Positions 11,896-15,449 of a DNA stretch of 64,000 nt are shown piece after piece. The notes beneath the pieces are model-generated. The model was not told where the DNA came from, made no database searches, and was given only the letters and a program-made list of their open reading frames with translations. The translations under genes were made by a program, and so were the position numbers. The DNA is from Saltatorellus ferox (GTDB lineage: Bacteria; Planctomycetota; UBA1135; GCA-002686595): positions 2,418,001 to 2,482,000 of the forward strand of contig CP036434.1 of assembly GCA_007751475.1 (NCBI GenBank), in the 5' to 3' direction. Within the stretch, counting starts at the first letter, position 1, and every line of letters starts with the position of its first letter.

Positions 11896-13341
11896 ATGGC
11901 CTTGCTGACCGACATTCTAGGGACTGCGCGACCCGCGCGAGACCCTCTTCTTCATGCCCGGGTGACCTCGGACCCGGTCTTACGCTTTCGATGCGGCGCG
12001 GCCCTGGCGATCGGGGCGGCTTTCGGCTGCCAGGGCCCCTCGCCAGAGGCGGAGGCCGTCCGCGTGAAGGACGTCGCGGCGGCCGATCCCGGCCGGGCTC
12101 TGGTCGAGCGACTGGCTGGAATCGACGTGCTTCACGTGGACCTCTGGGAGAGCGGCGAGCGAGCCGCGAGGATCGAGGGTCTGGCGCAGCTCGATCGCAC
12201 CCCTTCGGTCGCGGGCGGCTACGCGCTGGCCGGTCGCCCCGTCAGGCTCTCGTTCCTCCACGATCCCGACGCCGATGCCGCGGCCGATGGGTCGCTTCGA
12301 CGGGTGGTGGTCGAGCTGAACTGGCTCGGGGTGGACGCGAGCGCCCTTCCTGCGGCCAGCGTTCCAGCCTCGGTCGAGCCGCTGCTCCGCGGTCTGGATC
12401 CGGCCGATCGCGCGACGCTCGTTGTCCACACGGCCGGCGGTCGTCCATGGGACCTCGGCCTCGCGCCGCTTTCCTACCACGCCGAGCAGCTGCGCGAGAT
12501 GGCTCTCGCCGAGGACGCTGCGCGAAGCGCCGCCATTCCTTCCGCCGCGCCGTTCGCGGACTCGGAGCCCGCCGGCGATGCTCTCCAGCGGGCCGCGCTC
12601 GATCCCTTCCTTCGCTTCTGCGAGGCCGAGCTGCTCGTGCGTCGTCCGGACGTGCAGCAGCCGTACGGTGCCTCGCCCGCCAGCGTCTGGTTCGGCGACG
12701 TCGTCGCCATCGATCCGGGACCCGACGGCGCGGCGCTCCGATGCCTTTCGGGCCTGATGCACCGGCTCTTTCTCGAGGACCTGCCCGGGGGTGTGGCGGC
12801 CGAAGAGGCGGAGCGCGCTCACACGCCGAGTCTCGACGAGGACTGGGCGGTGCCGCGCTTTCTGGCCCTGCGCGAGATGATGGGGAAGGAAGCGTTTCGC
12901 GGCCTCCTTCGCGCCTTCGTGGATGCCCATCGCGGCGGGAAAGCCGTGACCTGGGATGACCTGGCGACGGCCGCCGAGGCCGTCGCGCCGGACCTCGGCG
13001 CGCGCTTCGTTCGAGCCTGGCTGCGGAATCCGTCGGAGGCGCGCGTGAAGACCCGCTGGCGCTACGACGAGGCGCGCGGCCGAGTGCTCCTCCGCGTGGA
13101 CCAGGTGCATGAGCTTCAGGGCGGCCAGGTCGCGCCGGCCTTTCCATTCCTTCTGCCGGTGAGCATCACGGACGCAGCCGGCAACGTGACCCGGGAGGTG
13201 CTGGAGATCGACAAGCGCCGTGACCTCCTCGAGATCGACGCGCCGACGCTGCCCGTGCGCTTCGACGTGGACCCGGACGAAACCCTTGCTCCGCTCCTGA
13301 CGCTGGAGCCATCGGACCCCGAGGATCCAGAAGCCCGTTAG
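11896..13341 (+). CDS. Lipoprotein with C-terminal resemblance to M1 aminopeptidases, lacking HEXXH
   Basis: The lipobox is IGAAFGC at about residue 48 from the ATG at 11896; an in-frame GTG at 11962 would give a normal-length lipoprotein signal and may be the true start. The C-terminal third (LREMMGKEAFRGLLRAF, then the acidic and aromatic stretch DLGARFVRAWL, then a beta-rich end with VDPDETLAPLL) follows the order seen downstream of the catalytic domain in M1 peptidases. No HEXXH zinc motif is visible, so enzymatic activity is unlikely. Its TAG stop overlaps the GTG of the next gene (TAGTG). Confidence 0.55.
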   Translation: MALLTDILGTARPARDPLLHARVTSDPVLRFRCGAALAIGAAFGCQGPSPEAEAVRVKDVAAADPGRALVERLAGIDVLHVDLWESGERAARIEGLAQLDRTPSVAGGYALAGRPVRLSFLHDPDADAAADGSLRRVVVELNWLGVDASALPAASVPASVEPLLRGLDPADRATLVVHTAGGRPWDLGLAPLSYHAEQLREMALAEDAARSAAIPSAAPFADSEPAGDALQRAALDPFLRFCEAELLVRRPDVQQPYGASPASVWFGDVVAIDPGPDGAALRCLSGLMHRLFLEDLPGGVAAEEAERAHTPSLDEDWAVPRFLALREMMGKEAFRGLLRAFVDAHRGGKAVTWDDLATAAEAVAPDLGARFVRAWLRNPSEARVKTRWRYDEARGRVLLRVDQVHELQGGQVAPAFPFLLPVSITDAAGNVTREVLEIDKRRDLLEIDAPTLPVRFDVDPDETLAPLLTLEPSDPEDPEAR

Positions 13342-13877
13342 TGATCCTCGGCGACGCCACAGCCCCGGGCCGTCCTGACACGACGTTCGCGACTCCACCG
13401 AAGGAGCTGCGGCGCGCGTATCGGAGTCTCGTTGCGGACGTCAAGCTGGCGCTCCTCTCGGAGATCGGCGCTCGTTCGGTGTTCGATCACATCGCGCGGC
13501 GCGCGCGGGATCCTGAGCTGGCGGTGGTCGCGAAGCAGCTGAACGAGGACGGGATCTGGCTCGTGGCCCGCGTTCAGGAGCTCATCCGCAGCATGGGAGG
13601 AAAGCCGCGCCGTACGAGTTTTCGGCGACGTGCGCTGGCGCGCGTTCTCGTGCACGGCGTCCCGATCACAGGGCCGCGGCCCGCCCTGCGCCTGATCCGT
13701 CACGCCGAGGAAACCGTGGCGCGCTGGTACGCGCAGTACGCGCTCTTCCTCGTCCGCATCGGCGATCATGAGCGGGCCCAGGCCTTCGAAGACCTGCGCG
13801 CCATCAAGATCCGGCACGCCCAGACGATCGGCGCCTGGGTGGACAACATCGGCCGAGGTCACGGCCGCTCCTTCTGA
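13341..13877 (+). CDS. Ferritin-like four-helix protein, hypothetical
   Basis: 178 residues, nearly all helical, with a long-spaced pattern of Glu and His residues (SEIGARSVFDH, LIRHAEETVARWYAQYALF, FEDLRAIKIRHAQTIGAWVDN) suggesting a ferritin-like four-helix bundle. It starts at a GTG that shares one base with the previous stop, so translation is probably coupled. It is followed 10 bp later by the AhpD-like gene, which suggests a joint role in oxidant handling. The fold assignment is inference from pattern, not a recognised family. Confidence 0.6.
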   Translation: MILGDATAPGRPDTTFATPPKELRRAYRSLVADVKLALLSEIGARSVFDHIARRARDPELAVVAKQLNEDGIWLVARVQELIRSMGGKPRRTSFRRRALARVLVHGVPITGPRPALRLIRHAEETVARWYAQYALFLVRIGDHERAQAFEDLRAIKIRHAQTIGAWVDNIGRGHGRSF

Positions 13878-13887
13878 GTCTCCCGCC

Positions 13888-14487
13888 ATGCCCTGGATTC
13901 GCACCATCTCCGTCGACGAGGCCACGGGGCGCCTCGCCAGGACCTACCAGGCCGCCATCCAGCGCGCGGGGCGCGTCTTCGGCATCCTGCGTGCCCAGAG
14001 CCTGTCGCCGCCGATCCTCGATGCGTCGATGGGCCTTTACCAGAAGATCATGTACGCGGCCGAGGGAATCAGCCGCCGCCAGCGCGAGATGCTGGCGACG
14101 GTCGTGAGCCAGGTGAACGCGTGCCACTACTGAACCTGTAGCCACGCCGATGACCTCCGTGTCGAGGTCGACCGGGAATGGTCCGAGCAAGAGGAGAGCG
14201 AGCGCGCTGCGTTCGTCGAAGGCATCCGCGTGGGCTGGCGCTCGCTGTCTGGAATCAGCGCGGAAGATCGCGCCCTCTGCGTCTTCGCCGAGGCGCTCAC
14301 GCGCGAGCCGGCGGGAATGCGCGAGTCGCACGTGCAGGCGCTGCGCGCCGAGGGTTTCGATGACGTGGCGATCCACGACGCGATCCAGGTGATCGCGTAC
14401 TTCAACTACATCAACCGCATCGCAGACGCGGTCGACGTCGAGCTGGAGCCCGAGTACCCGCCGCATCCGAGGGACGCTGACCGTTGA
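13888..14487 (+). CDS. AhpD/CMD-like peroxidase-related protein with in-frame TGA; probable selenoprotein (CxxU)
   Basis: The reading frame from ATG 13888 runs to TGA at 14131-14133, then continues in the same frame to a second TGA at 14485-14487. Read through, it gives 199 residues. The first half ends VSQVNACHY and the second resumes TCSHA, later HDAIQVIAYFNYINRIAD: both halves match carboxymuconolactone decarboxylase/peroxidase-related proteins end to end. The TGA is codon 82, at the place of the second Cys in the family's CxxC redox motif, giving C-H-Y-U. A hairpin follows at a SECIS-like distance. The alternative is a Cys-to-stop pseudogene. It overlaps the next gene by 4 bp. Confidence 0.78.
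14147..14175 (+). promoter_or_regulatory. Candidate bacterial SECIS hairpin
   Basis: The stem GACCTC (14152-14157) pairs with GAGGTC (14164-14169) around the six-base loop CGTGTC, which contains GT near its 5' side. An outer CCG/CGG helix (14147-14149 with 14173-14175) can extend it past a small internal loop. The apical loop starts 24 bases after the TGA at 14131-14133. Bacterial SECIS elements are hairpins inside the coding region just downstream of UGA, with a G-U in the apical loop. This was found by eye and not folded by computer. Confidence 0.55.
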
Positions 14488-15449
14488 GCGCGAACTTTCA
14501 CGTACCCGGGCTCGATGCGAGCGAGCCGCAGCCCGCGCTTCTGCTCCACAGCGATCCGTCGGAGCTGATGGTGGTGCTCGAGGCGTGCCCTGGGCTTCGC
14601 TGGAGAGCGGCGTCCAGCGGACCGGAAGTCCTGGCGGCGCTGGAGGCTCACCGGCCAACGGTCGTCTTTTCGCTGAAGCACTCGGGCTTCCCCGGCGACG
14701 AGCATCGGCCCGCGATCATGGCGCCGTCGGTGCGCTGGTTCCACGTCGGCGGCTCCGGCGTCGATCATCTCGCGGGCTACGACTGGAGCCGGGTGACGAT
14801 GACGACCTGCGCGGGCGTGCTGGCGCCGTTCCTGGCGGAGCGCGCGGCGGCGGCGCTCTTGTATCTCTCCACTCGTCTCGACGAAACGGTGCGTTCGACG
14901 GCCGAGCGGCGGTGGGAGCCCACGCGGTTCGCGTCGCTCCAGGGAAAGACCGCGGTGATCGTCGGCGCGGGGGCGGCGGGCACGGAGCTGGCGCTGCGCC
15001 TGCGGCCCTTCGGGCTGCGGCTCGTCGGCGTGCGGGCGAGCGGCGAGCCGCATCCCGCCTTCGACGAGATGCATGGACCGGGCGCGCTGGCCGAACTTCT
15101 GCCGCGCGCCGATGTGCTGTCGCTGCACGTGCCGCTGAACGCTGCTACCCGGCATCTGATAGGCCAGGCCGAGCTGGAGCGTCTGCCCGCGGGCGCGATC
15201 CTCTTGAACTCCGCCCGCGGCGCGGTCCTGGAGGAGCGGGCGCTCCCCGGCGCGCTCGACCGAGGGCTCGGAGCCGCCTGGCTCGACGTCTTCGAGGTCG
15301 AGCCGCTGCCGGTGTCGAGCCCGCTCTGGTCGCACCCCCGCGTCTTGATCACGCCGCACCAGGCGGATCAGGTCGGAGACTATCCGATGCGTTTCGCCAG
15401 GCGATTCGCGGAACTCTGGGCGGAGCTTACCGCCCGCCGTCCGCGATGA
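14484..15449 (+). CDS. D-2-hydroxyacid dehydrogenase, NAD(P)-binding
   Basis: A D-isomer-specific 2-hydroxyacid dehydrogenase. It has the nucleotide-binding stretch VIVGAGAAGTELALRL (residues about 155-170), then HVPLNAATRHLIG, NSARGAVLEE (catalytic Arg), DVFEVEPLP (catalytic Glu) and ITPHQAD (catalytic His). Length is normal at 321. The substrate cannot be predicted. The start is TTG at 14484, inside the stop of the AhpD-like gene (TTGA overlap), so the two are almost certainly co-translated. Confidence 0.87.
   Translation: MSANFHVPGLDASEPQPALLLHSDPSELMVVLEACPGLRWRAASSGPEVLAALEAHRPTVVFSLKHSGFPGDEHRPAIMAPSVRWFHVGGSGVDHLAGYDWSRVTMTTCAGVLAPFLAERAAAALLYLSTRLDETVRSTAERRWEPTRFASLQGKTAVIVGAGAAGTELALRLRPFGLRLVGVRASGEPHPAFDEMHGPGALAELLPRADVLSLHVPLNAATRHLIGQAELERLPAGAILLNSARGAVLEERALPGALDRGLGAAWLDVFEVEPLPVSSPLWSHPRVLITPHQADQVGDYPMRFARRFAELWAELTARRPR

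Follow-up and report, generated by a model that had tools for sequence, protein, structure and literature searches.

The analysed window is a 64,000-nucleotide stretch of the Saltatorellus ferox genome (contig CP036434.1, positions 2,418,001 to 2,482,000 of the forward strand), and positions are counted from its first letter. On its forward strand, a predicted AhpD-like (TIGR01926) selenoprotein gene was located at 13888-14487. From the ATG at 13888 to the stop TGA at 14485-14487, the translation runs in one frame with one internal stop, the TGA at 14131-14133. The original prediction had described this single interruption and had placed it exactly at the second cysteine of a CxxC redox motif, and both points were borne out. 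The residues around the internal TGA are C79-H80-Y81-U82, with the TGA at the second redox position (CxxU) as the predicted selenocysteine codon, and the product comprises 199 residues if codon 82 is read through. The third-position GC content was 0.94 before the TGA and 0.85 after it, and both halves are coding-like. A mechanical ORF listing cut the gene in two (13768-14133 and 14230-14487), which is the split that had been expected of a gene finder. When the window was scanned for in-frame TGAs with open flanks and a nearby cysteine, 20 were retrieved; judged by reading the contexts, the TGA at 14131-14133 was the one that lay in the redox motif of a recognizable family. The remaining contexts looked repetitive and out-of-frame.

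The gene has neighbors on both sides on the same strand. A gene encoding a 178-residue protein (13341-13877) ends 10 bases upstream and is a recurrent same-strand neighbor; its best match lay on the selenoprotein gene's strand in 34 of 130 related loci (the window's own included), within 150 bases of the AhpD-like match in 26 of them, although many of the 130 loci include little flank and some are duplicates. The 178-residue protein had no match in Pfam or NCBIfam, and its alignment, by eye, looked helical and ferritin-like. The upstream gene is probably co-transcribed with the selenoprotein gene, and its product is a possible functional partner of the selenoprotein. The downstream neighbor is a D-2-hydroxyacid dehydrogenase-like gene (14484-15449; PF02826, 146.8 bits), whose predicted TTG start overlaps the selenoprotein stop (TTGA, 14484-14487), which would suggest translational coupling. 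It adjoins the selenoprotein gene in 11 of the 130 loci, which are the window's own and those of five genomes of the same genus, each present twice; among the loci holding flank, it lies beside the selenoprotein gene in same-genus loci only, and one further, distant dehydrogenase match was found in locus L106. Neither a promoter nor a terminator beyond chance was found beside the selenoprotein gene. A phage origin was rejected, with no match in the phage collection.

Residues 2-189 of the read-through protein matched TIGR01926 with 128.9 bits, above the cut-off of 81.8, and the PF02627 score was 46.2 bits. Its score for AhpD proper (TIGR00777) was 30.8 bits, far below the cut-off of 191.95; the AhpD-like identity initially proposed is thus to be qualified, as the family is the peroxidase-related TIGR01926 and not AhpD proper. 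The protein was also under the cut-off of TIGR04030, and it reached 74.6 bits over residues 3-189 against NF041238 (AhpD_rel_CFYUT), for which the cut-off is 175. The latter model describes an alkylhydroperoxidase-related (seleno)protein of a related family, sharing, according to the model name, the C-x-Y-U-T core; however, its length is 357, and this protein matched only positions 152-338. Modeled with AlphaFold2 at a mean pLDDT of 95.9, the read-through product is predicted to form one helical fold that continues across codon 82. The closest solved structures were the peroxidase-related 6k40 (Deinococcus radiodurans AhpD), 3c1l (Mlr4105), 2oyo, and 2pfx, which were nearest in both sequence (E 4.8e-24 and weaker) and fold (TM 0.78-0.82), while 6k40 and 3c1l have cysteine at the position aligned with the predicted selenocysteine.

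Five positions around the motif (E67, C79, Y81, position 82, and H86) were invariant across an alignment of 71 Sec-form proteins selected from the 111 non-redundant loci described below. The proton relay of AhpD-like proteins is reported for PA0269 as Glu36, Cys48, Tyr50, Cys51, and His55 (PMC3141380), and E67, C79, Y81, U82, and H86 correspond to these residues in identity and spacing. According to the same report (PMC3141380), the five relay residues have this spacing in both Mycobacterium tuberculosis AhpD and PA0269; the protein resembles PA0269 in having a tyrosine where M. tuberculosis AhpD has His132, and it differs from M. tuberculosis AhpD in subfamily, as indicated by the TIGR00777 score.

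Downstream of the internal TGA, a bacterial SECIS hairpin was predicted on the forward strand at 14151-14170. Its core consists of the stem strands GACCTC (14152-14157) and GAGGTC (14164-14169) around the loop CGTGTC (14158-14163; CGUGUC in RNA), and a T-G pair lengthens it to 7 bp, with G at loop position 2. The hairpin starts 18 bases past the TGA with its loop at 24, just where it had been anticipated. Fig. 2 of a 2026 review (PMC13188914) gives the bSECIS constraints as a loop of 3-9 nt, a stem of 4-16 bp, G in the first two loop positions, a spacing of 16-37, and an energy of at most -7.5 kcal/mol. Evaluated with our own script, the hairpin lies within these constraints (loop 6, stem 7 bp, spacing 24, -9.0 kcal/mol). 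The folding energy of 14129-14180 was ordinary, with a z-score of -0.35 and 67 of 200 shuffled sequences folding as well. The hairpin alone is therefore not striking, and its significance comes from comparison across relatives.

The codon aligned with codon 82 was TGA in all 130 loci, with identities down to approximately 43%. These loci, 50 from a genome search and 80 from named contigs, overlap and correspond to 111 non-redundant loci; because the selection took the best matches to this same protein, their uniformity describes the near clade and not all of TIGR01926. By record title, the 80 named loci belonged to Planctomycetota (37), Chloroflexota (17), Acidobacteriota (15), and Gemmatimonadota (2), with 9 unassigned, and the TGA form thus spans at least four phyla. 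Among 20 further loci, which were more distant relatives or second copies, 10 had TGA (L161-L170), nine had Cys (L151-L153 and L155-L160), and one had Leu (L154); this ratio is meaningless because the loci were picked partly for showing no TGA. The proposed comparison of homologues at this codon therefore gave TGA in every best-matching locus and Cys in more distant or nested relatives.

Many residues 3' of the TGA were invariant or nearly so, as were those 5' of it. Other disruptions of the gene in relatives, which had been named as a possible argument against recoding, were found as second stops in L023, L030, L032, and L043, and these sit at the C-terminus; in L023, L032, and L043, the two-TGA relatives that were read, the second stop was a TGA. 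One relative (G050:C37:21703-22226) was matched in two pieces, covering residues 1-97 (with the TGA) and 121-191, which reflects perhaps a frameshift or a divergent insert.

These comparisons bear on the explanation that the TGA is a nonsense mutation or a sequencing error in a decaying gene, of which only an 81-residue fragment would be made. The split in the ORF listing, the unremarkable energy of the single-sequence hairpin, and the relative matched in two pieces, if frameshifted, are in line with decay, but a decaying gene does not account for a TGA at the same codon in all 130 relatives or for the conserved and coding-like stretch that follows it. The explanation was rejected on the conservation of the TGA and the coding-like 3' half, and we regard its probability as negligible.

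The bSECIS model was passed by 95 of the 111 real sequences; the remaining 16 relatives failed this simple test. When synonymous codons were resampled, the pass rate was 28.5% (4440 sequences), and it was 15.5% over 14621 codon positions elsewhere in these genes. Across the 111 sequences, clear constraint on codon choice was confined to codons +8 to +12 past the TGA, with weak constraint at +10, and no constraint was detected at p<0.05 at codons +1 to +7 and +13 to +15. Within the hairpin, the Leu codon was CTC in 106 of 108 sequences (background 0.41), the Glu codon was GAG in 97 of 106, and the Val codon was GTC in 56 of 68. The Arg codon was CGT in 66 and CGG in 43 of 109 sequences, leaving no other codon in use (background for both 0.325, CGC being usual), while other conserved Arg positions of the same genes had CGC in 77 of 104, 36 of 71, and 20 of 32 sequences. 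Background codon frequencies are those of all 111 genes taken together, and the counts ignore relatedness. As CGT or CGG provides a loop G followed by U or G, the Arg codon choice coincides with the loop preference described for bSECIS elements (PMC13188914).

The third base of the Asp89 codon (14152-14154) pairs with the first base of codon +12 (Val94, 14167-14169), and the two covary. The combinations among the 111 sequences were C-G in 71, T-A in 23, T-G in 4, C-A in 0, and others in 13; thus, the amino acid at codon +12 (mostly Val/Ala versus Ile/Thr) goes with a synonymous choice at the Asp codon. Over the whole stem, the proportion of paired cells was 90.5% against 88.1 in shuffles, and two-sided changes numbered 24 against 8.2; each of these values was reached in 0 of 500 shuffles. 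Two other measures were unremarkable, namely the count of pairs that show a two-sided change (as high in 133 of 500 shuffles) and the count of further pair types (122 of 500), because a single strongly covarying pair carries the evidence. In slid controls, the paired proportion was between 27.7 and 53.8%, and the slide -1 control had a covariation score (0.138) equal to that obtained for the structure (0.133). Beyond the protein sequence, the hairpin is under selection at the nucleotide level.

The genome (7.7 Mb, single contig) was searched for the selenocysteine machinery, as had been advised, and selA, selB, selD, and tRNA-Sec were all found. The tRNA-Sec (70.9 bits; ARAGORN tRNA-SeC(tca), anticodon TCA) was the sole match over the cut-off in the genome, with eight further tRNA matches of the same search at 35.7-39.3 bits, under the cut-off. 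The selA match scored 453.5 bits, selB was over the cut-off (342.1 bits combined), and selD, at 327 bits, has its own in-frame TGA in the motif CAGU-AAK. In-frame TGAs were also present in 5 of the 16 AhpC-TSA matches of the genome, all in W-U-x-x-C contexts (G000:C1:7183619-7184056, 5748269-5748625, 7562799-7563152, 1005429-1005725, and 6044327-6044599; L176, L178, L180, L181, and L183, respectively), and two of these five genes have a model-grade hairpin in the simple SECIS test. The predicted selenoproteins in the genome thus number seven, comprising the five W-U-x-x-C genes, selD, and the AhpD-like gene. The selenocysteine reading put forward initially was supported, and of the adverse outcomes that it had named, those looked for (a genome without selABCD genes and close relatives disrupted elsewhere in the gene) did not speak against it.

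Among the 120 listed of 243 relatives from the protein database, position 82 was Trp in 50, Cys in 4, Ser in 6, Ala in 1, and a gap in 5, while 52 began after the selenocysteine position and 2 stopped before it. The 50 Trp entries are what might be cited for a reassignment of TGA to tryptophan (code 4), under which the residue would be Trp. Against this, the selenoprotein gene and the upstream gene both end in TGA, which is therefore a stop in the same operon; the position corresponds to the family's second redox residue, and 9 of the 10 loci read that lack the TGA have Cys there; and the genome has complete selenocysteine machinery and a hairpin under selection. By eye, the Trp entries seem to come mostly from contigs near 1 kb, and both they and the late starts are likely gene-caller effects widespread in metagenome protein sets, the former probably arising from gene callers switching to code 4. 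Code 4 was rejected on the TGA stops in the same operon, the Cys homologues, and the selenocysteine machinery, and is in our view extremely improbable.

The distribution of the TGA form was compared with that of selA in 392 genomes of the phylum. selA was detected in 114 of the 119 TGA-form genomes versus 128 of the 273 others (Fisher p 2e-23, a value that ignores relatedness). The 119 are the genomes with the TGA form among the matches listed, with E down to 3.1e-19, and the position of the TGA was confirmed only where the locus was retrieved; the 273 include 39 genomes whose matches were all weaker and beyond those listed. The TGA form occurred without a clear selA in five of the 119 genomes (G110, G120, G205, G226, and G310). 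A clear tRNA-Sec was found in G310 (69.7 bits), and the tRNA-Sec matches of the other four, which are draft genomes, were at most 50.6 bits, a range also reached by selA-less genomes. In these four, the genome may be incomplete, the gene may be a contaminant, or it may have persisted after loss of the machinery. Among the matches listed, the best match lacked the TGA in seven genomes, with Cys at position 82 in six and Leu in one; five of the seven had neither selA nor a tRNA-Sec match near 70 bits. Of the six genomes with a Cys-form best match, four were without selA, and G322 and G326 have selA and a clear tRNA-Sec. Cys forms were also found as second copies in G386 and G043, both of which have selA and a TGA form too.

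A quick tree was built from 84 rows (15 Cys, 68 Sec after thinning, and 1 other), and the Sec/Cys label changes at least six times on it. The Cys proteins P0002 and P0051 were nested in the main Sec clade, with fork supports of 94 and 91; 33 of the 81 inner branches of the tree were weak, and some long rows were uncertain. This topology suggests Sec-to-Cys replacements within the clade, the direction of change being a reading and not a result because the root of the tree was not inferred. As far as can be judged from the aligned codons, selenocysteine is near-fixed at this position in the near clade, with few Cys forms among close relatives.

A separate TGA-bearing paralogue clade (L161, L163, L165, L166, L167, and L170) carries the motif HHRRGLRR (HHTRGLRK in L170). 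In L161, L163, L165, and L166, the peptide HHRRGLRR is encoded by a different hairpin, near CGGCGC-GGTCT-GCGCCG, with a spacing of 18 and a loop starting with GG. The best hairpin of the model lay elsewhere in L167, and that of L170 was weak (-5.0); in L168, which is outside this clade, the SECIS model found no hairpin. The different hairpin of the paralogue clade implies that the SECIS element may have arisen or moved separately.

Taken with the conserved codon and the machinery, the hairpin at 14151-14170 likely acts as a bacterial SECIS, and on this basis the TGA at 14131-14133 is predicted, with near certainty, to encode selenocysteine, so that a single 199-residue AhpD-like (TIGR01926) CxxU protein would be made. 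SelB would bind the hairpin and deliver the Sec-tRNA to the ribosome; we infer both the insertion of selenocysteine at codon 82 and its efficiency. By homology, U82 would take the place of the second cysteine and be activated through the Glu/Tyr/His relay, and the activated U82 would reduce a peroxide or another oxidized substrate, with C79 resolving the resulting selenenyl intermediate. Peroxide is the likeliest class of oxidant because the nearest relatives are peroxidase-related.

The same selenoenzyme might instead perform reductive dehalogenation or another reduction, in the manner of the debrominase Bmp8. Selenoenzymes able to remove halogens exist, as exemplified by the deiodinases, and Bmp8 was retrieved both by Foldseek (6ohi and 6ohj; TM 0.71-0.72), behind the peroxidase-related proteins, and as a weak profile match (E 0.0022). 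The peroxidase-related structures were closer (6k40, E 2.4e-11 and TM 0.80-0.82; 3c1l; 2oyo), and the profile scored 6k40 approximately 126 bits above Bmp8. We consider dehalogenation or another such reduction unlikely, and dehalogenation of the Bmp8 kind is a weaker reading than peroxide reduction.

The statement that AhpD-like CxxU proteins are a known selenoprotein type agrees with the literature, in which both family and motif are in print. AhpD-like proteins were listed among new selenoprotein families (PMC1088965), and the review (PMC13188914) has an entry for an AhpD-like selenoprotein (TIGR01926, CxxU, example MCB9421940.1) from the Sargasso Sea study (Zhang 2005) and one for NF041238 as AhpD-related CxxU. 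For AhpD-like 1, the GOS survey counted 299 forms with Sec and 902 with Cys (PMC2398784), and selenocysteine use by planctomycetes has been published (PMC4807772). Going by these descriptions, the Sargasso/GOS protein (TIGR01926 / COG2128) and the one presented here are alike in family, CxxU motif, and SECIS downstream of the UGA; unlike for AhpD-like 1 of that survey, the carrier lineage and genome context are known here, and few close relatives have a Cys form. As the family, the motif, and the selenocysteine trait of the phylum are already in print, the protein is not novel as a type. The consulted portions of the literature on AhpD-like selenoproteins, planctomycete selenocysteine, and TIGR01926 contained no account of this planctomycete clade or of the codon covariation, which is no proof of absence.

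What is new is the near-fixed predicted selenocysteine in the clade, a SECIS that constrains the protein sequence, and widespread misannotation. A bolder scenario, which we hold to be distinctly improbable, is that in a clade extending over Planctomycetota, Chloroflexota, Acidobacteriota, and Gemmatimonadota, the default residue of this enzyme is selenocysteine and Cys forms are later losses, that the hairpin froze part of the protein sequence, even the Val/Ala versus Ile/Thr choice five codons on, and that the protein, with the five UxxC thioredoxin- or peroxiredoxin-like TGA genes, would form an all-selenium electron chain for peroxide reduction. The gene is a clean example of a selenoprotein overlooked by gene callers. 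The alignment of 111 SECIS candidates, of which 95 satisfy the published model, could serve to calibrate the prediction of SECIS elements in GC-rich phyla. An RNA signal within the coding region has shaped the codons and apparently the amino acids of this family, which amounts to measurable dual coding.
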